From the NCBI RefSeq assembly GCF_000002985.6, contig NC_003284.9, forward strand, positions 10,912,001-10,976,000: DNA of 64,000 nucleotides. Direction: 5' to 3'. A program made the translations under genes and the position numbers. Source of the stretch: Caenorhabditis elegans (lineage: Eukaryota > Nematoda > Chromadorea > Rhabditida > Rhabditidae). Below the pieces are notes generated by a model. That model did not search any database. It was given only the letters and a program-made list of their open reading frames with translations, and was not told where the DNA came from. Positions 7,714 through 63,200 of the stretch are shown here, piece after piece (position 1 is the stretch's first letter; each line of letters opens with the position of its first letter).

Positions 7714-9231
7714 TTACTCGTTGCGGATTGCAGGTGCTAAACACCAGGTGGTTCTGAAAAAATATTTTTAAAAAATAAATGAATTTTGAGTAATTAGCAG
7801 ATGTTACTCAATTAGTTAATGTGAAAGGTAGTGCCAGGCGTTGCACTTTAATATGCAGCCGCCACGAAGTTGGCAGTAAAAATGATAATAAATTGAGTTT
7901 TTTGAGAACAAAATGCGTGTATATAGAACTAGAGAACGGGCTACCAATATTTATCATCAGCCCATCGTCAATCTTATCTTCTTCACGCAACCTCTAGGTG
8001 AAGCGCAAAGCATTTTTGCACTGTCTTTCTTTTCCACAAAACCAAAAAAAACCTGACAAATTGATATCAGATACACAACTTTACAACTAGATAGTGTCCA
8101 TGAGCTCATATGAATTCCTGATAATCATCAATTAGTCTAGTTATGAATTAATTGAATATTTTTTCGACTGGTATATATAAATATAATTTTATTAATATAT
8201 TATAATATATGTGAATATAATTTCAAATTAATTCTATATGTTAAAAACCTCCTATTTTGCGAATTTAGATTTTGGTTCACTTATAATACTTCACAAAATG
8301 TTTGAATTTGAAAGTGTATCTGCCAAAATAACAAAACACCAAACATAAAGATTGCCTGCTTGCTCATATTTTTCGTGAAGGTTTCCCCTGACTGTCTGGA
8401 ATAACGAAAATTGTCTTGATTATTTTTAATCTTAGATTTTTGAACAGTTCCGACTGAGCTGTTTTTCTGTGTTGGTTGTTCATAACTTATTTTTGGATAT
8501 AACGTTCCAAAACATAACAAATTATAATTTTTAGTTTTAAATTTATGAAACAAAACAGTGATGCATTGAAAACAGGACTGTTAAAACTGGGGAGAGATGG
8601 TTGGTGGTGGGGTAATCAAAAATGACAGAGAACAACTAACTATTGAGGAAAAAGGCGGAAAACAGTGAATTGAGAAAACCCATGGAATTCCAAAGGCTCA
8701 GAGAGCATACAAGAAATAAGAAAATCACCGTTACAAAATTGAGGAATATATGTGTTTTGTGGTAGAGAAAAATGGGAGTGTTAGAAACTAAAAAATAAAA
8801 ATGAAGAAAGCTGGGATGAGATGGATGATTTTTGGGAGTGGGATTGTGTTGGTGGGAAAGTACTGAGAAATGATTCAAAATGCAACAATAACTACAGAAA
8901 AAGGAAAGATTTGGATTGTGATTGTTATTATGAATTGCCTCGTATGGAAAGAGATAGGGAAAGATTTGAAGTATTTGGGAAACCCCGAAAACAGCATTGA
9001 AATGCAATCTTCATGGCTCAAAACTACTGCAATTTATCAACATTGTCCAGTTTAAAAAGGATAAATGTGATAAACTTTTGATAGGATTTGATATTCATGT
9101 TGAATTGTATATCCATGCAAGTACAGGAAAACGATTGATGGCTAAGTTCGGAACAAAGAAAGGGAAAGGTAGAGGATAATAACAGGAAGAGACATCAGTT
9201 CATAACAGTGGATACAATTTCTCGCTCGGAA
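7714..9231. other. intergenic: transporter 5' flank and dgn-1 3' flank
   Basis: The right part, next to the dgn-1 stop at 9232, is probably its 3' UTR; a 123-codon minus-strand frame at 8636-9007 is low-complexity (His/Phe/Ser/Asn-rich) and follows from the AT/CA composition. 8161-8240 is an almost pure A/T stretch. No other gene signal was found. Confidence 0.5.
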
Positions 9232-11509
9232 TTAAGGAGGAATGAATGGAGACTGAAGCTTTTGGTTCGATGATGATGAAGCATGTCCGAGACGTGGAGA
9301 GTTGCTGGCGATTGGTGGTGGTGGCTTGTACAACGGATTCTCGTGCTGAGACACCTGCAAAAAAGAAAGATATAGATTTTATCTCGTTCGGAGATGTGCG
9401 CAGAAATAAGCGAAACTACGCAACAAAATATTTTTCTCTCGTTTTTCCTTACCTTGAGTGGTGGACGTTCCTCACGAGCGAGCATTGGAGTTCCGGCGTG
9501 TGTTGGATCATTCTCCTCAACCTCATCTGGGAAGACAACTGGAAGGCCCTTGGACACATATTCGGTGCTCGTTGACTTCTTCTTTCCACTTTTCTTGATA
9601 CAAGCACAGTAGATAATGATGGCAACCGCAATCAGGAGAAGAAGGAAAAGAAGGACGCAGATGAGCAACAGCTGCGAGTCAGCTTCTTGAATTGATTCAA
9701 CAGTTGGAGCTGTAGTGCTAATTTCGACTGTCTCATCACAGTTTCCGTGGCGGATCATAGTGGCGGTACGCACATAGAATTGATTTCCCATAGTTTTGAC
9801 AAACTCCGTCTTAGTTCTCATCTTTTGCTTGATAATCATCTTTGAGGCCATAGCATTGATTGCAGCTTCATCGCATACTTTGTATGGAATTGAATTGTTG
9901 CTGAAAGCCACCATTGTTTTGTTGTTCTTGTATCCAATTTCTTGAATAGTGAAACTGTTGACTGGAGCCTTGAGGGATCTGGCAAGAGCACGGACGAGCA
10001 AGTTTCTCTTTGAAGGATTGGTAGCCATTTGCTGGGGAGTTGGTTGATCCATTTCTAACTGGACACGGTGATTGGTTGGAAGAGCTGGCTTCACATTGAC
10101 CTGGAATGGAGCAGATGCGAGTTGTCCAGCTTTGTCACGAGCTTCGAGACGGTAATTGAATTCTCCAGTTCTCATTGGAACTCCGATGAGTCCCTTGTTC
10201 GATTCGTTGATCATCCAGACTTCAGCATTGTCAAGAGCCAGAACCGAGAGCTTCATCTTGAAGGTGTCTCCATCTTCTGCATCCTTGAATGTTTCTGATG
10301 GAATACGAAGGTCGCACATTTCTCCTCTGAAAATTTGTTATGATTAGAAACTTTTTATGAATATTAATTTCTCTACCTTGTGCAAGTGAATGATGGAAGT
10401 CTGTTGAGAAGGATTGGTTTGTTGTCAGTGATTCTTCTCGTGGTACGGATGAGCTCAGTTGTTGTACGCAAGTACTCGGCAGTCGTGGGATCTTCAGCCT
10501 CTTTTGTTGGTTTTGGAGCCATTCCCGGCTTGAAGAATCCTTTAGCTAATTTAATCGAGTCATAATCAACATCCTCTCGATCAACGAAGTCATCCATGTA
10601 ATTGAGTGCTTCATCGAAATCTTCACAGGCAACCTTCCAAATAGCCATATACTGTCCATGAACGGCTTCTTGGTTGATTTCTTCGAGCTCTCTATTGATC
10701 AAACTGAAGTTGAACGAGTAGATACGCACAGTCTTGATTTCTGGATCCAGCTCCAACTCATTCATTGCAAGTGCAGTGTTGATTCTGTTGGCGAGCTGAA
10801 ATTTTGTTAAATATTCTCTTGACTATCTTGAAAGTAACTTACCGACGCCTCTTGCTCGTGGTAGGTTTCCATCCAGAAAGTGTTGTTGGCTCCACATGGG
10901 CTTATAGTTTCTTCCTCGACATTCAGGTACAGGTAAACGGGCTTGCGTCCTCTTGATTTGATCTATAAACCCGCATGTTACACAGAGTGCCTCCTACACA
11001 TCTCACGCGCTCTCAGGGACCACATATTTCTCTCTCATTTATCGATATAGCGACTTGAAAACAACTGCAGCTGGTTTCTCCGTGGATAGTACATTCAGAA
11101 ATATCTAGATGCTTCTATTAATTTGTTTCAGAAATTTCTTTGATGACTCACGTGCCACCCCAAGTACCTTCCCGAACTTCTCGTTTTCGTCCAAAAGAAC
11201 CGTCGCACTTTTATTCTACAAGCCCACATTCTCTCACTTCTGTATGCTCACTCCTATTCTATTTCTATACCATTTTCTTCGATGACTCACCATGACAGTG
11301 TGCCTGCCAACGTCGTTTTCAGTTGGGATACCCGTTAGCGTCTGGTCGCGAACCATGAGCCATGAAGGAAGTGGGCCGGAATCCTTTCCAGTAGCAATGG
11401 TGTAGTTGTCTCCAAGGTTGTGCTCAAACAGTTCTCCAATAAACACACGGGTGTCGGAAATGGCGGTTGTCACTAGTAGCAGGGTGGATACCAGGAAAAT
11501 GAGACGCAT
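9232..11509 (-). CDS. dgn-1: dystroglycan, 5 exons, 584 aa
   Basis: Exons 11291-11509, 10843-10962, 10377-10795, 9453-10326 and 9232-9354 (1755 nt). The N-terminus is a signal peptide (MRLIFLVSTLLLVTTAIS). A cadherin-like module follows (GPLPSWLMV, LTGIPTENDVGRHTVMV), then a dystroglycan-type region and a second cadherin-like module (LIGVPMRTGEFNYRLEARD), one transmembrane span near residue 440 (LLLICVLLFLLLLIAVAIII), a Lys-rich juxtamembrane stretch and a proline-rich cytosolic tail (YKPPPPIASNSP, ending FIPP). Dystroglycan links basement-membrane laminin to the cell cortex; the worm gene is known for epithelial and gonad morphogenesis rather than muscle. I see no long Ser/Thr/Pro mucin stretch, and the vertebrate PPxY motif that binds dystrophin WW domains is not obvious. 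A TTTTTTTTAG acceptor ends at 11520, 11 bases before the ATG, consistent with SL1 trans-splicing. Confidence 0.95.
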
Positions 11510-33466: not shown

Positions 33467-36400
33467 TTAGCATGGTGGCTTTGGTGGGCACTGAGTCAAT
33501 CCACGGCATTGCTGGGATTCTTCGGCAAGACCGATGCAGTGACATCCGGATTCTCCAACACATTGACGGCTTCTGTAAGATATAATTCAGATTCTTAACA
33601 TGTCTTCATCAAAAACTATTTCAGACCTAGATTGTACTCCAACTTCGCATGCAAGTTGTGTTGAGCATGGACTCCATTCGCACCTGGACATTTGAAAAAA
33701 CTAATTAATACCAATGTAACAGTTTTAACTACCAAGTATTCCAAGCGCATTGAGGAGCACATGACTGACTGTTACATTCCTTTTCTTCACGATCTGGTCC
33801 ATCGCAGTGGCATGATGAATCCGGACTTCCAGCGCTGTTCAAACATGTACGAGTGCGAATTGACTGTAATTCATTATTACCCCGTTCTGAACATATATTC
33901 AATATATCTCACCTGACCACCCCCGCATTCCTTGTCGCACATGGACCAGTGACACCACTCAGACCAGTTGCAGCAAGATTGCCCTTCGCAAAGGGTAGTT
34001 TCAATACTTGGTCCTTGGCAAGTAGTGGCTTCTTGCCCGTTTGGTCCAAGGCACCCACGAGTTCTAGTCCGTTGTCCGGGTCCGCACTTTGAAGAGCATC
34101 CTGACCACTCGCACCACTCTGTCCACTCGGCACATGGAGGTCCGTAGCAGAATTGGCTCTCTTCGTTTGGTCCTTGGCAATCAGTTCCAAATTGGCAGAC
34201 ACGTTGTCTCCGCTTCATTCCGCTTCCGCATGAAGCCGAGCATGTAGACCACTCTTGCCATGGAGACCAAAGAGAGCATGGTCCACCATCACAGGCACGT
34301 TGTTCAGTCTTTGGTCCTTGACAGAGATGATCACCGAAAACACCTCCGAGACATGTACGCTGACGAACTGCGACTCCTTGTCCGCAAGTCACAGAGCATT
34401 GTCCCCAATCTTCCCATTGAGACCATTCTGGGCATGGTCCAGCACTGCATTGCTCAGATTCGTAGTCCTTTCCTTCACATCTGTTTGTACCAAGATGACA
34501 GAATCGAGTTCTCTCGCGTTGACCTGATCCACAGCTAGCAGAGCAAGTTGACCACTCGCACCATTCAGACCATGTCTGACATGGGCCAAGATTACATGGC
34601 TCAGTCTCATAATCAGCTCCTTGGCAGTTATTGGTGGAGCATTCACGTCTTCTTGATTTAGCTCCATCTCCACAGGTGCATGAGCAGGTAGACCAGTCAG
34701 ACCAATCATGCCAAACTCCAGAAACAACTGGTGGGTTGACACATCCTTGTCCATCGCATGCTGGCGGTGGTGGGGGAGCTGGACGATATCTGGTTGGGTA
34801 GGGCTGTGGAAGTGGTGGCTGAGTGGCAGTGTTGATCACTGGAGCAAGAACTGGCGGTGGTGTTGGGCGTTCTTGTTGTGGGGCCTGTGGAACTGGGGCG
34901 CAGAAACCTCCTGGGCATGGATCAGCCTTTGGACGAGCTGGATGTCTCTGATTGAAGTTCTCGCGGTATTGAGACATTCTCTGCTGATAGAGTTGAGCAT
35001 GTTGATCGAGTGGAGAACGCTCAAGTTCTGGTTGCTGCTGTGGCTGCTGCTGTTGCGGATGTTGTTGTGGAGGGACTGGCCCACTTTGGAGTTGGATTTG
35101 AGATTGTCCGAACTGTGTTGTCTGTTGTGGCTGTTGCTGTGGATTTTGTTGACGTTGCTGCTGTTGTTGCTGCTGTTGTTGTTGTTGCTGCTGTTGTTCT
35201 CTCTGCCTTTGAAGATGAAGCTCGTGAGTTCCAGAGAAGGACTGTGGCTGTTGTGGTGGTCGCTGTGGTGGCTGTGGCTGTGGTTGTGGCTGTGGCTGTG
35301 GTGGACGTTGCTGCTGCTGCTGTTGCTGTTGTTGTTGTTGTTGCTGGTGCTGCTGAAGACGAGCCTGATGTTCTCTGTGTTGTTGTTCTCTTTGTTGCTG
35401 TTCCCTTTGCTGCTGCTGTTGCTGTGCACTTGGGTACTCTGGGGCACGTGGCGCATACTGCTGCGCTGGTGGAGCTGGGACTCTTTGTGGAGCAGATCTA
35501 GCTGGACATCCACGACGTTGGATTTTTCTTCCGTATTCGCATGCCTGAGAGCGCACCTCGTGTCCGTTACTGGAGCAATGGGACCAATCTGTCCAATCTC
35601 CGACTCCTTCAACAGCTTCATCGCCTTGTTCTAAAATCACAACTTTATATAAACCGAAGTAACGATCGAAATCTTACGTCTCTTCTTTCTGTCAACCTTA
35701 TCGGTAGACGAAGCCAAACCGTCCTCCTCCAGTGGTGGATGAGCATCAAATTGGTGGCAGTCGACGACCAGTTCGAGCATTCTAACAATATCTTTCTTGT
35801 TTTCTGGCTTTTGCTCGACAAGGTCAATTTTATCTTGAACCGAGTTGTCGGAGAAGAGGTAGCAGAAATGCTTCTTTGTTTCGTTATGCAAGTAGTAGTA
35901 AACCACTGAAAACAAGTTGAACTTTTTTGTGAAGTTAATGTTTTTTTAGTCTTCATGACCCCAAACGCAGAGATCAAATTTCGAAGACGGAGTTTTGCGA
36001 ATCAAGGAGGGGCAGTGTAAATTTGCAAAAGCAATCAGTTAAAGAAGCAGAAAAAGAGATATTTGCGGATGAGTGTCATTTGTTATAGATATTGCTTGAC
36101 ACATCACATCAATCTTCTTGGGCCGGATAGGATCCGGTGCAAAAATGAAAATTTTACCTGCGGAGCACTCTGGGAAGATGTCCACGCATTTCTTCTGACA
36201 CTCGTAGGCGGTTGCCTGCATCATCAGCAATGGAGATGATCCTTCTGAAATAATCAAAGTGGTACGTGGACACACACGAAGTTAATGACGGATAATTGAT
36301 TTATGTTTGTTTTGCTGCAAACACCTAATGCGTGAATTGTCAATAAATGAAACTAAAACAATAATTTATTTTTCATCAATGATTTTAGAAATACTAGTTT

Positions 36401-48981: not shown

Positions 48982-51426
48982 TCAACAGAAATTGCAACTT
49001 TTCCGACAGTTACTTCTCATCCAAACATTGTGATTTGGATTGTTACATAGATCCTGAAGAGCCCATGCTCCGCAGTAAACATTCTTATCATCACATCCTG
49101 AAAATGCAAATATGTTGCAGTAATCAGGATAATCATACTCACCTGCGGATTTGCAGTACATTTTATTAAGAATCTCAACATCCGCATTGCTCATCTTGGC
49201 TCTCTGTCCAAGTAAACCAATGTTAGCTTGTTGATTGACCAATGGGATCATAGTTGGTTTGGCAATGTTCACGGCACCGGTGTATGCATTGTAATGCATT
49301 ATGCTGTCATACGCGTATTTAACTCCATATGTAGTGTAGAGTTTGGAATCGGCCACCACAAATGCATCGTACTGCTGAGGATTAATATTGCTCCAGTCAA
49401 CCTAAAAAACAAAACAGTGAAGGGGTTAATCTTGGATCAATTCTTGAAACTGTTAAAAAGTTCTAAGAAAAATGTTTTATTTTAACGATGTAAGTGGTGT
49501 GATATCTAGAAAGTGCAGAATTTAGGCGGCAAATAAAATTTCAATGAATTTTCAAGTTTATTCATTTCTTCACACTTTTAACAAAATGTTCCTGTTTAAT
49601 TTTCCAGTAATTTTTTTCTTAAACAACCTTAATATGTTTGTCTCTATCCATTCTTAAATGTTGATGATTAACTCCCAATGCGTGCATTGTTTCGTGAACT
49701 GCAATCCCTCTTCCATTTCCACATTGAAAACTAAGATACACTGGATTTGCTGGCTCGACTCTTCCAATATATGACAAACCGCAACTGAAACAATTGTTGG
49801 TTTCACGATACAAAGCACAAATAAGGCTCACAAAGATGGCGAGTTCACTTTCTGGTAGTTAATGTGGTTCCCTTTTGGCGGAGAAGCAAAATATTTGAAG
49901 CGAATGCATGTCTTTTGCTCAATTTCTGAAATGGCTCCGCGTACATCATTTTGATCTAAATTATCCAATGATGAGTCAAAAGTGTATGGAATTGGAGATG
50001 TGCTTGGCCATTTTTGGATCAAGTTTTGCTCGAAAAATATAGATGCACGTTTTGCTTTTGCTGATCCAGGCATTGGAATTGCTCCCTCGCCGCCTTTTCC
50101 TAACTCATTGAGCATAAAGTTTGCCTGAGTTTCAGTAAGGAGCAGATCTTTGTCAAATACTCCGTTGTCCTCGGGGGCAACCTGAAAACAGTATTTTGAT
50201 ACTTTAAAAAAATGTTTATTAACAAACCACTCCTTTAAGTTGCGCCTTTTCCAAAAGAGCTTGTTTTAATTGGAGAGTTCTATCGAATCTCAAATTCATT
50301 TTATCAGCCACGTTATTTCCGAAAACTTTTTTCTCGAAATCAACGGTCTGTTTTAATATTGCCTGTTTCATTTGAACATTCTTTTGTTGTTGTTGTTTGC
50401 AGTTCATTTGTTGGCAAATATTCTGAAACAATTCGATTATTTGACAAAATTTTGACTCGTGATAACTTTAAACCTAAAAATTTGAAATCTGAATGAGCTA
50501 TGGTTAAACAATGAATTTTACTTTTGATGTCTTATTTTGAAAATTTAAATTAAAATAAGAAAAACCAAGCTCTTCCAAACCAAATGAAATTCCAAATTAT
50601 TAAAAAAAAAACACTTACTCTGATGTTATTTGCAAATTGCTGACTTATTTGACCAAATTGAACTTGAATTCCATTCAGGGCATTCTTCAAATCACTATTA
50701 ATGCCTGATAATGGATCTCTGATATTGATACTGAAATTAATTTCATTGATTTTTAGAAGTTGCTAAACAACAACTGACAATGGAACTTTTGGCAACCATT
50801 TCCCACTGTCGACTAATATACCATTGAGCATTGATCCAATATCATTAAACTGAGGAAGTTGTCCGCTGTAAATTCACAAATATTATATTTTTGACATTTT
50901 AAATTTTTAGTGTATAGTTCTAGTCTGAAACTAAGATTGGAGCAACCAAAAAACAAAAAAGAAGCAGTAAATAATCAGAATTACCGGCATTTTGGATGAC
51001 CTGGAAATCTTCTACAAAACCTTCTTGCATGTTCCACCCATTCACTTTGCGGCGGTGGCGGACCGTGAGCCATTTTTCCAAGGTCGTTGTTCACATCAAG
51101 TCCTTGAGCAATTTTCCCGATTTGATCAGTTATTCCTTTTACCATCCCATTTATATTCCCGAAAATGTCACCAAGTGGGCTATTTGGTCGACTTCCCTGT
51201 AATATAGCATTATTTAAAAAACGATACAAGTTTATCGAAAAATATACCGGCCGAGAGTTAGGATGTGGTCCATTGTTGAAACCTCCTGAATAATAAAAAT
51301 ATATAAATGCGTGATTTCTTGCTCTTTACCTCCAAAACCCATTTGATTCATAAAGTCAAATTGTGGCCAACCATTGGATAGTCCAAGACAGAAGAACAAC
51401 ACACAAAATAATTTTGATGATAGCAT
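48982..51426 (-). CDS. nas-10: astacin-type zinc metalloprotease with ShK domain, 10 exons, about 534 aa
   Basis: Exons 51330-51426, 51248-51285, 50985-51196, 50797-50865, 50619-50730, 50228-50422, 49832-50181, 49628-49784, 49143-49401 and 48982-49097. A signal peptide (MLSSKLFCVLFFCLGLSNG) and a long Gln/Asn-rich prodomain precede a KAKR site before the catalytic domain (IPYTFDSSL). Zinc site: HETMHALGVNHQHLRMDRD at about residue 388; the two Glu/His ligand positions are intact, but the Glu that usually follows the third His is Gln. The Met-turn region reads YAYDSIMHYN. The protein ends in a six-Cys ShK module (CDDKNVYCGAW to SCNFC). Astacins process collagens, cuticle and signalling proteins outside the cell. 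The junction 50797/50730 uses a weak donor (GTTGCC), chosen because it alone keeps the frame. Confidence 0.88.
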
Positions 51427-54644: not shown

Positions 54645-57600
54645 ATGCAGTACATTGTAGCGTCATATTTTACAATATGGAACTTTGTGGACCACACACG
54701 TGTTGGGGCGTTTCCGGAAGAAGTGAGTGAGAATCACACGATATTTTTCCAAAATGCGTTTTTAATAGTTTAAATTCTTAATTTAGGATTACATTCGCCT
54801 TGCGTATATTATCGGTGGAAATTTTATGACACGTCTTATGTTCATGCAGCATTTTAAAAGTGTATTGAAGTACTCTGACCATTTCTTTCGCCTACATCTG
54901 ATAACTGATGAAAATCACCGATCCGATATTCATGAGCTCATGACGTCATGGAATATTTCAAACTGCGAGTGGTTTTTTCACAATCTCACAGAGTTCGAAA
55001 AACGAGTTGCTTGGATTCCAAATTCACATTATTCAAAATATTATGGTTTGAGCAAACTTTTAATTCCTGAAATCATCGGCAATGACATTGGAAAGGTGGG
55101 TCTCGTAAATTGTTATTGCAATCACCAGTTACTTACAGATTATGTTCATGGATGTTGATATCATTTTTCAAACCAATATTTTTGATTTGTGGAAACAATT
55201 TAGAAACTTTAACAATTCCCAGGTTTTCGGAATGGTGGAAAATCTTTCCGATTGGTATCTTAACAAGGATGGTAAAAAGTCGGTTTGGCCAGCATTGGTA
55301 TGTCGTAAAATAAATATTTATTCAATGTTAGAAATGTTAGTAAATTGAATCGAATTAGTCAAGTCGATAAAATTAGTTATCCGTATCCACACCCACAGCA
55401 TCCGCATCCACAAGGTTGGGGTGAAACGGGAGCCATTGTAGCACAGTTGCAGCAACCACAACAACCACAACCGCATCCATAATATCTCTTTGCACGAATC
55501 ACAACTCCATTGCCTTGACCTTCTGAACCCAAATCATCCATTAATGCAATTGGGGTATCGTTATCAATTACAGCTAAGCTCGTGTCTTCTGATGGATTTT
55601 GAGAAATTTCAGCATTAACTTCTCCCTGAATGTTTGAAGTGATACAATAGTTTGTTTTAAGTATTTACCTGGTCATTCTGATTAACAACTACAACCTCCT
55701 TTTCTGTTCTCAAGAAGGAGTCGAATAGGTTAGCATTGATAGTGCAAACCAAAAGAGCAAGTGAAACCAAAGTCAAACGAAACATGTTTGTTGTTGTCTC
55801 TTTGCTTCCGAGTGTCTCCTTTTTATACTAAACTAATCAACACCACGCATTGTTTGAACATATGTTCTTTAATTTAATGCGCATTTTGAATAACTGTTTT
55901 TTGTGTTTCAGGGACGTGGATTTAACACTGGAATAATCATGTTTGATTTGGATAAGCTCCGGAAAAATGGATGGGCAAGCAAATGGAGAGTAGTGGCTAA
56001 CAAATATTTACGAATTCACGGAAAAACTGCCATGTCAGATCAAGTAAGAATTTTGTTCACGAAATTTCAAAAATCACCAAGCTGATCCTCTTTTTGAAAA
56101 GTATTCCGATTGCTTTGAAATTTTACAAATAGATCATAACTGTAAACCGCTGTTAATTTTCTTACAATAAACGTGGTATTGAAGTTCTCAACAAAAAATC
56201 GCTGTATACCATGTTTACTCTACTCTTTGCCTCTATTAGTTCTACACTCTTTAATTGTATTTTATCTAAATAGATGGCAAAAAATGAGTATATTTCCCAA
56301 AAATAAACAATCGAGATGATAGGTTAATAAAGAAATTTGGGTGAACAGGTCAATTCTTCATAAATAACAAATTCAGGACATATTTAATGCATACATTCAT
56401 GACTATCCGACTGAAATTATACAAATTCCATGTGCTTACAATTATCAACTTGGAGCACTCACAAAATCCAAAGAACTATGTCCGGAGACTCCACTTGCGC
56501 TACATTTCAACTCACAAAACAAGACTGTTGGAAAAAATTACGCATTTTTTGACAAGATTCGAAAAGCGTTTGATGAAATGGATGGTTCAGATCTTAAACG
56601 ACGTAGACGATCTTTTAAAGGAAATAATCAAAAAGATATCTGCCATGAATATTTACCATTAGACAATTTCCGAATTATCCCAAATGCAATTGGAAGAATG
56701 ACAAAACCTGCAGAACTCTGCATGGTGACGCAGTTTTCCAAAGATCGACTTAATCATTTTCTGGAAAGTGCAAATGCGTGGCGGCATCCTATATCTACAG
56801 CAGTATACGGGAAGGATAAAGATTTGGTAATGTTATTGCTTCAAACACGTTTTATACTCCTCAAGTTTCAGCTAGACATTGCAAAAGCCGTCACAGAATT
56901 GAATCGCACAGATATCACAATCCATCTGGTTTTTGAGGAACCAACTGAATCCTGGATGCTAGACTCTTTATATCCCATAAATTTTTTGAGAAATGTAGCA
57001 ATTGAACACGCAAACTGCAAATATATTTTAATGACTGATGTAGATTTTGTGGTACTTGGAGGTGAAAAAACAATGACGAGAATTAGAAATTCAGTTTGAG
57101 TTTTAGATTACGGTACAATAATCGATCAAACTGGAAACCTGAAACAAAAAGAAGTTCTGGTGATCCCTGCATTGGAAATGACATACCCGCAGCTGAGGTT
57201 AAATTTATCAAATTTTCTCTCGAGAAAAGATTTGGTGATAGAACATTTATTGAACAAAACCGTGAGAATAACATTTCAGATATTAAAACTAATCTTTTCC
57301 TTTCCAGATTCAAACTTTTCGGGAAACAATTTGGCCAAGTTCTCACGTACCTACAAATATTTCAAAATGGATAAAGTCAAATCGCACTTATATGGTAGCA
57401 CAAAATGTAATAAAATGTTCTAACATATTAGTTTTAGGTAAATTATGAAAAGAACTATGAACCTTATTTTGTAATCAAAAAAGAAGAATGCCCTTTTTAC
57501 GATCAGCGGTTCGGAGGATTTGGCTGGAATAAAGTAACTCATGTAATGCAACTGAAAATGATGAAGTGGGGTAAAAGATTGAGCATACTTGCAACTGTTT

Positions 57601-60271: not shown

Positions 60272-63200
60272 TCAGACTTGAGATTTGCAGAAATTGTTGG
60301 TTTTGCACCAAACTTCGCCGTCCTGAAAATTGATCATATTCAAGAAGAAAAAAATTAAATACCCCTTTTTTGAAACTATGCAAATGACTTGGAACTGTAA
60401 ACAAACAAAGTTCGACAGAAAGTTGAGCCCAAATGCCGATGACGTTGCTCAATGATTTTCCTCATTTTTTCAAACATTTAGAAAAACTGATAAAATTCTA
60501 ATCCACCACCCATATTATAAACGTTAGTTTCTTACATGGCACATGCATTCAACACAGATATCATTGGAATGATTCCATCTGTCTCCACTCTTCCGTCTTT
60601 TTCCTTTATCGTGACAGCTTTTCTTTGAGTGGTGATGTCGTCTCTTCCGCCGTTTAGCTTTTTCATCGCCACCAATTGCATTGCGAGCCAACGTTGAGCT
60701 TGATGAGCACATTGCATCGCAACATGTTGTCCACATGTTCAAGTTGATTTCCGGTAATGACTCACAGGGCTCATAGAATTGTGTGCTGTTACCGTGATAT
60801 ACGAAAATATCTCTCTGAAAAAAAGAGCGTGATGACGTGAATTAAAAATTATGCAAAGTATGAGTGAGAGGTATTTCCCGGGGTCTTGCTAACCTGAATT
60901 CGGTCAATGTCGTCACCGTTTGTGCATATGATCTTTGACAATGTAACTTTCTTGATTTGTCGAAGTTGAGCCTTTGAGAACATTTCTTCATTCTCATACC
61001 AAAATCTATCCCCATCTCTCAGGCGTTTGAATTGATCAGCAATTATACACGCAAGTGTTGGTCCCATCAACGCGTCAGCAGTTCTCTTTTCAGTAACACC
61101 TCCAACCCAAAGATCAATGTTCTCTAAAAGTTGTGTATTATTGTAATCACTGACCGTTATGCAGATTTTGAACATTAAAAGTCAGTCACGAGAAGTTATA
61201 AACGTTTTCAAACATTGTAACAAACCTGTGACACCGTAGAGGGATTGCAGTTTTGAAATGACTGTATCGTTTTGAACAATGTTTTTCATATCGGACCAAG
61301 TTTTTGGGACAGTTAGATTGCAGAACTTGCGATATTCGGTCCATGATGGTAGACCGTGGTCTCGGCCTCTTTGAATGTTGAGAGCAGCTAGGTCAAGGGC
61401 TACCTGAATTCAACCAATGTAGAAATATAAAATTTGTTCGTTGCAAATTCAAGGCACAGAAAGTGATTGAAAAAAGATTGAACGTGCTCTGGTCAAAAAA
61501 GAGTAAACGTGCACTGACCAAAAAAAATATTATACTTGCACTGACCAAAAAAATAATTAACGTGCACTTATCAAAAAGGATTAAACACGCACTGGCCAAA
61601 GAAAAAATTACACGTGCACTGACCAAAGAAAAAATTATACGTGCACTGACCAAAGAAAAGATTGAACGCGCACTGACCGAAGAAAATATTACACGTGCAC
61701 TGACCAAAAAAGATTCAACGCGCACTGACCAAAGAAAATATTACACTTGCACTGACCAAAGAAAATATTACACGTGCACTGACCAAAGAAAGTATCAAGC
61801 TTCCACTGACCAAAAAAATAATTAACGTGCACTTATCAAAAAAGATTAAACACGCACTGACCAAAGAAAATATTACACGTGCACTGACCAAAGAAAGTAT
61901 CAAGCTTCCACTGACCAAAAAAATAATTAACGTGCACTTATCAAAAAAGATTAAACACGCACTGACCAAAGAAAATATTACACGTGCACTGACCAAAGAA
62001 AGTATCAAGCTTCCACTGACCAAAAAAATAATTAACGTGCACTTATCAAAAAAGATTAAACACGCACTGACCAAAGAAAATATTACACGTGCACTGACCA
62101 AAGAAAGTATCAAGCTTCCACTGACCAAAAAAATAATTAACGTGCACTTATCAAAAAAGATTAAACACGCACTGACCAAAGAAAATATTACACGTGCACT
62201 GACCAAAGAAAGTATCAAGCTTCCACTGACCAAAAAAATAATTAACGTGCACTTATCAAAAAAGATTAAACACGCACTGACCAAAGAAAATATTACACGT
62301 GCACTGACCAAAGAAAGTATCAAGCTTCCACTGACCAAAAAAATAATTAACGTGCACTTATCAAAAAAGATTAAACACGCACTGACCAAAGAAAATATTA
62401 CACGTGCACTGACCAAAGAAAGTATCAAGCTTCCACTGACCAAAAAAATAATTAACGTGCACTTATCAAAAAAGATTAAACACGCACTGGCCAAAGAAAA
62501 GATTGAACGTGCACTGACCAAAGAAAATATTGAAGGCGCACTGACCGAAGAAAAAGAAAACACGTGCATGTGTAAATTGAATAGAACCAAACTTTTTTTT
62601 CACATTGGTTTTTTCATACATTTTTTATAAAATTATTATCTCTGTGAAACAATTAAACAAATTTTCTCACCTCATGGAATCTATTAAACAATTTTTCTGT
62701 CAATTCTTTGTTGAGAACTTGATCGGGTCTTGGCATTTTAATTGGTGCAGCAAACAGGCCACGTAGCAATGGATCAACGCCACCTTCAGAGACTAGTCTT
62801 TCCGGAGCAAAGAAAGCCTGAATATACGTTTAAATGAGAATGAAAACGATTCAAATACGCTTACGTTGTGCAGAGGTAAATGTCCCTGTTTTGTCTCTTT
62901 GAAGTCCTTATCGAAACGGAAAAGATGAGTATTGATTAAAGTATGAGCGAATCTCAAAGCTGCGGTTGCAAACTCATTTGCAATTGTTGGATTGACATCT
63001 GGATTGTATCCTTTGTACTCTCCAATTATTGTGTTATATGTTGCCTTTCCAAGAATTTTGGGGAGCCAAGCATTGTAGGTGATGTGTTGCAGCATAGCAC
63101 CAATCAACTTTCTAGTTTCTGGAAAACTTGCAAGTTTTATAATTTATTTTCCAAGCATTTATGACTTTATTCCTAAGAAATCGTAAACTCCAAAAAGTTT

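Follow-up and report, generated by a model that had tools for sequence, protein, structure and literature searches.

A Cys/Gly-rich prepropeptide gene nested antisense in an intron of the Caenorhabditis elegans LARGE homologue: a four-member family and a putative pharyngeal-gland element

Introduction

The HLH-6-dependent products of the C. elegans pharyngeal glands known so far are described as mostly ShK/mucin-like proteins (PMC2563036). The same study reports an HLH-6-dependent gland element, PGM1, present in 12 of 14 gland promoters versus 20 of 96 other pharyngeal promoters: its mutation abolished or greatly reduced expression of the four reporters tested, three copies of it drove gland expression in 31 of 40 animals, and a CAnnTG to AAnnTG change abolished its activity (PMC2563036). 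According to that work, a PHAT-5 fusion lines the pharyngeal lumen, and hlh-6 mutants feed poorly, a defect rescued by less sticky food (PMC2563036). Cys-rich secreted proteins are also reported in the pharyngeal cuticle, where gland products, PHAT-2 and PHAT-4 apart, are considered probably minor in the cuticle turnover at the molt (PMC9629831).

Here we describe a small Cys/Gly-rich prepropeptide gene lying antisense within an intron of a LARGE-type glycosyltransferase gene. The phat genes (pharyngeal gland toxin-related, ShK/mucin-like) are, like the nested gene, secreted, Cys-rich and preceded by PGM1, as described in PMC2563036. The nested peptide differs from them in being much smaller and in having no ShK domain (PF01549; no Pfam match at E<=10), the RAKR cut and the Cys/Gly block being features of its own. 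Metallothioneins have dense CxC and CC spacing, as does the nested peptide, which differs in being a secreted precursor with a pro-region and in giving no metallothionein profile match. A separate set of genes on chromosomes I, II and V encodes an RVKR site followed by very long Cys/Gly-dense runs and a second RKRR site; it resembles the nested peptide in its RxKR followed by a Cys/Gly stretch, but the stretch is longer and followed by the second site. The APPG and IDPB pharyngeal cuticle families, compared by description, are, like the nested product, secreted Cys-rich low-complexity pharynx proteins; they are tied to pre-molt cuticle building, as described in PMC9629831, whereas a gland element and a furin-type site mark the nested gene.

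The explanation that we consider the best as a whole, and to which we give an even chance, is that the gene encodes a furin-cleaved, disulphide-rich, perhaps amidated pharyngeal-gland peptide that coats the pharyngeal lumen. No publication on the gene or its peptide was found in the lge-1, gland and cuticle literature, judged by titles and abstract openings; WormBase may well list the gene already, as uncharacterised.

Results

The window analysed is the whole 64,000-nucleotide stretch C6:10912001-10976000, C6 being what we take to be the X chromosome; the genome-wide searches and counts cover the C. elegans genome (100,286,401 bases, 7 contigs). The host intron (55298-55911, plus strand, 614 bp, GTATGT...TTTCAG) belongs to a gene designated here as the LARGE homologue because of its Pfam matches: Glyco_transf_8 (E 3.7e-8), by the host exons joined across this intron, and Glyco_transf_49 ('Glycosyl-transferase for dystroglycan', E 5.1e-15), by an exon downstream. 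These two matches bear out the original prediction, which had called the host a LARGE homologue. A dystroglycan gene (DAG1, E 2.5e-17) is located at 9195-10334 of the window on the minus strand, around 45 kb from the LARGE homologue (54.6-57.8 kb, plus strand). Dystroglycan is glycosylated by the mammalian LARGE counterpart; the proximity of both genes is perhaps a coincidence.

The genes preceding the host are, in order, a Na/H exchanger (42.9-44.4 kb) and an astacin-like-ShK gene (49-50.5 kb), the LARGE homologue starting at 54.6 kb; the frames of the second (48982-50467, minus strand) look astacin protease-like by eye and end in a ShK domain (ShK match). This order fits what we take to be the cosmid order, K09C8.1 to K09C8.4, which presumably places K09C8.2 before the nested gene, and K09C8.2 was therefore rejected as its name. 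K09C8.2 is described as a male-gonad marker (PMC11602045, PMC11106331).

The nested gene (366 nt, 121 amino acids) is encoded on the minus strand by two exons in frame, with the ATG at 55785. Exon 1 (55669-55785, 117 nt) contains the start codon, a signal peptide (MFRLTLVSLALLVCTINA, judged by eye) and the start of an acidic pro-region; it is followed by a 43-nt phase-0 intron (55626-55668, GTAAAT...ATTCAG) and, by the reading of frame and splice sites, by exon 2 (55377-55625), encoding the rest of the pro-region, RAKR, the mature Cys/Gly peptide and the TAA. The pro-part has about 64 residues and a net charge of -11 by residue count; the mature peptide following RAKR (55380-55484) has 35 residues, including 12 Cys and 9 Gly, and a C-terminal Tyr-Gly. 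A TATA-box-like string, TATAAAAA, is present at 55820-55827 (minus strand), with AGTATAAAAA as its counterpart in the X-linked paralogue described below; it is a weak sign on its own, since it occurs 17 times in the window versus 12.6 expected. A poly(A) signal, AATAAA, is located at 55317-55322 (minus strand); as it starts at 55322, cleavage of the nested transcript is expected near the 5' splice site of the host at 55298. By its predicted transcript ends, the gene and 126 bp of upstream DNA are contained within the 614-bp host intron, on the opposite strand. Re-reading the sequence left the original prediction of a two-exon antisense gene at 55377-55785 unchanged, including the 55669/55625 junction; its own poly(A) signal was also found, and the proposed prepropeptide plan (signal peptide, acidic pro-region, RAKR, Cys/Gly block) is backed by paralogues built on the same plan. 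The product is very probably secreted and cut at RAKR, as its signal peptide and cut site suggest.

Overlapping gene clusters are reported to be around 12 times fewer in the worm than at random, the nested type being preferred among the overlaps that are kept (PMC2330155). Antisense nesting in an intron is an ordinary arrangement, and no difference was seen between the nested gene and other protein-coding genes nested in this way.

A search for paralogues, proposed along with the original prediction, found three within the C. elegans genome, a scope that would miss distant exons: one at X:530.6 kb (57% identity to the nested peptide, E 4.8e-17) and a pair in tandem on V, at 15.798 and 15.799 Mb (E 2.1e-9 and 3.3e-9), reciprocal searches included. 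The same plan is readable in all four genes: signal peptide, short pro-part, phase-0 intron, IRAKR and Cys/Gly block; the introns of the paralogues were placed by hand at the matching position, where an unusual AAG acceptor is required in the V pair and a GTTGAA donor in the X copy. IRAKR and the C-terminal GCCGCG[YW]G are invariant in the four members, which also have a GCGC between the two. A genome search with the C-terminal pattern gave 10 sites, four corresponding to this family and six to others. The mature peptides were compared with shuffled versions because composition alone can make Cys/Gly blocks look alike: the scores of the nested-X, nested-V and X-V comparisons, with one V copy used, each stayed above those of all 5000 shuffles. 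Between the nested gene and a V copy, the resemblance of the pro-parts is doubtful (score reached by 156 of 2000 shuffles). The RVKR and Cys/Gly genes were rejected as family members, their similarity to the nested peptide not rising above composition (395 of 2000 shuffles). Judged by these comparisons, the nested gene is part of a family with four members found in the C. elegans genome. As its paralogues sit elsewhere in the genome, it is probably a copy that was placed into the intron of the LARGE homologue.

The substitutions are distributed differently on the two sides of the start of RAKR (Fisher tests on rounded counts). In the V pair there are 7 synonymous changes and 1 nonsynonymous change in the 40 codons from RAKR onward (dN 0.011, dS 0.33, p 9.5e-5) versus 9.5 synonymous and 15.5 nonsynonymous changes in the 46 codons before it; the nested gene and the X copy differ by a dN of 0.106 and a dS of 0.97 from RAKR onward (p 3.3e-5) versus a dN of 0.81 before it. 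Selection therefore keeps the mature peptide within each pair: purifying selection acts on the mature part in both close pairs, and the pro-part drifts. Across the two branches, X and V, divergence of the mature part is greater (dN 0.32-0.36, dS 2.5 or saturated). The paralogues, the purifying selection on the block and the similarity beyond composition put the frame above chance, and the nested gene is almost certainly a real protein-coding gene.

These data also bear on a function other than a coat on the pharyngeal lumen, namely an antimicrobial peptide, disulphide-rich and made by gland or epithelium, acting on ingested bacteria. The prepro plan with an acidic pro-part, a dibasic cut and a small Cys-rich mature part would fit such a peptide, as would a family of few genes, two of them in tandem, and the divergence of the mature part between the X and V branches. 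However, the mature parts are not cationic (net charges of 0, +1, -1 and -1 in the four members, by residue count), and the single nonsynonymous change in 40 codons between the tandem copies is not that of a fast-changing sequence. Neutral charge and tandem-copy conservation speak against a fast-evolving antimicrobial peptide, which we consider unlikely.

The mature peptide of the nested gene, YYGCGCGCCGCCNCATMAPVSPQPCGCGCCGCGYG, has Cys spacings of 2,2,1,2,1,2,11,2,2,1,2. The four members have 12 (nested gene), 8, 10 and 10 Cys; these numbers are all even, which fits disulphides, and the Cys form two clusters around a Pro/Ala-rich linker (7+5, 4+4, 5+5 and 5+5, split by eye). The peptide matched no Pfam family at E<=10, defensin and other Cys-rich family profiles included, and no PDB chain at E<=10 in a sequence search; the spacing had been originally described as unlike that of defensins or ShK domains, and this description holds. 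AlphaFold2, run on the single sequence of the mature peptide, gave an uninformative model (mean pLDDT 52, pTM 0.18), which is not evidence of disorder. The 12 Cys in 35 residues, the CxC and CC spacing and the two clusters around the linker would also suit a secreted metal-binding peptide, that is, a metallothionein-like Cys cluster for extracellular Zn, Cu or Cd. Against this function, which we regard as quite unlikely, no Pfam family was matched at E<=10, the signal peptide and RAKR would route the peptide through the oxidising secretory path, and even Cys counts fit disulphides equally well.

Both ends of the mature part are aromatic in the family: the peptides open with YY or QW and close on Y or W plus a terminal G or GK, the latter a possible amidation donor.

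The sequence upstream of the nested gene contains a full match to the PGM1 consensus CAnvTGhdYMAAY (PMC2563036): CATATGTTCAAAC, at 55852-55864 on the minus strand, 79 bp upstream of the ATG. Within 500 bp upstream, the consensus is present in the nested gene and in the X paralogue, whose promoter has the full match CACATGTTCAAAC at -123; neither V paralogue has a full match in its 600 bp. Both V copies carry AATATGTTCAAAC, inverted and without the E-box C; as this C is reported to be essential in PMC2563036, two of the four members should not respond via PGM1. A shorter string, ATGTTCAAACAA, is common to the four promoters, around 75-130 bp from the ATG and inverted in the V pair; it is part of CATATGTTCAAAC in the nested gene and of CACATGTTCAAAC in the X copy. 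The longest strings common to pairs of promoters were compared with those obtained by shuffling one 200-bp promoter 500 times: the 13-bp core common to the nested and X promoters was reached by 3 of the 500 shuffles, and the corresponding strings by 0 (nested gene and V copy at 15.799 Mb), 2 (nested gene and V copy at 15.798 Mb), 1 (X and 15.799 Mb), 8 (X and 15.798 Mb) and 0 (V pair).

Matches to the relaxed consensus are frequent (7 in the window versus 4.0 expected; present in 1.25% of the 126-bp slices of the window). A strict form, CANNTGTTCAAAY, is rarer: it occurs 469 times in 100.29 Mb, where its reversed pattern occurs 202 times, and only once in the window, at the nested-gene site, with 6e-4 expected in the 126-bp nested promoter. 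Among the best 30 of 150 scored ShK matches, 11 loci (around 3.1 kb, overlapping) contain the strict form, which come down to six different sites in clusters on V and I that we take to be phat genes. It is also present in 4 of the 28 loci containing TGTTCAAACAATG, one of them the nested gene; these loci are no fair control, since they were chosen by an overlapping string. PGM1 was sought after the promoters had been read, and the strict form was set after the ShK loci had been seen; the counts are consequently not independent tests, the motif and its narrowing being post hoc and the promoters of the two X-linked copies related. The promoter suggests expression in the pharyngeal glands, a site absent from the original prediction, and by this element such expression is rather probable.

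The gland element bears as well on another alternative to the gland-coat peptide, a signalling peptide that would resemble a neuropeptide ligand and end in a Tyr- or Trp-amide. The YG, YGK or WGK at the C-terminus after a conserved block and the prohormone-like cut site would agree with it; the single copy per precursor, the 8-12 Cys, the absence of Pfam matches at E<=10 and a promoter element that is of gland and not neuronal type make it very unlikely. A chance open frame or pseudogene without product is scarcely credible: the gene is known here from sequence reading alone, but the paralogues, the pattern of substitutions, the signals for splicing and poly(A) addition and a common promoter core all argue against it.

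Discussion

The explanation of the nested gene as a source of a pharyngeal-gland coat peptide builds on the gene model, the paralogues, the selection acting on the mature part within both close pairs, and the promoter core that the members have in common; from them we infer expression, processing and function. The gene would be transcribed from its own promoter, in antisense, within the intron of the LARGE homologue, and its expression in the pharyngeal glands would be turned on by HLH-6 through PGM1. The product would enter the secretory path, be cut after RAKR by a furin-like convertase and form disulphides, and its C-terminal G or GK may be trimmed, leaving the peptide amidated. Once released into the pharyngeal lumen, the Cys/Gly peptide would join a coat on the pharyngeal cuticle. 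A lining or coat function is put forward tentatively; a steady coat is likelier than a role in molting, because gland products, PHAT-2 and PHAT-4 apart, are given no large part in the molt in the account of PMC9629831.

A broader proposal, which at present must be seen as doubtful, is that these peptides constitute a nematode class of their own: Cys/Gly peptides freed by furin, with two Cys clusters and aromatic termini (YY...Y or QW...W, perhaps amidated), which disulphides cross-link into a coat of the pharyngeal lumen and whose gland enhancer was copied along into the LARGE intron. The nested gene would add to the HLH-6 gland products a distinct conserved peptide family with a ready regulatory prediction, and may be a compact example of how copying can bring a gene into an intron along with its promoter element.

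A further string, TGTTCAAACAATG, occurs at 28 sites in the genome versus 6 for its reversed form. Classified by their flanks in our own count, 11 sites are in one dispersed repeat, 2 in near-copies and 15 elsewhere, two of the latter being family promoters (the nested gene and one V copy); the sites left after removal of the repeats still exceed the control. It was rejected as a regulatory signal of many genes, as, the two family promoters apart, no RxKR/Cys-rich or ShK frame lies beside the sites. The dispersed repeat carries GGACAAAGTTGATATGTTCAAACAATG, which contains the core of the paralogue promoters, near position 1500 of the 11 loci.

Other features of the window are a 105-bp tandem repeat at 61470-62530 (9.8 copies, 93% matches), open on both strands for around 300 codons, and a gene encoding a TSP1-repeat protein with long Gln runs at 33877-35673 (minus strand).
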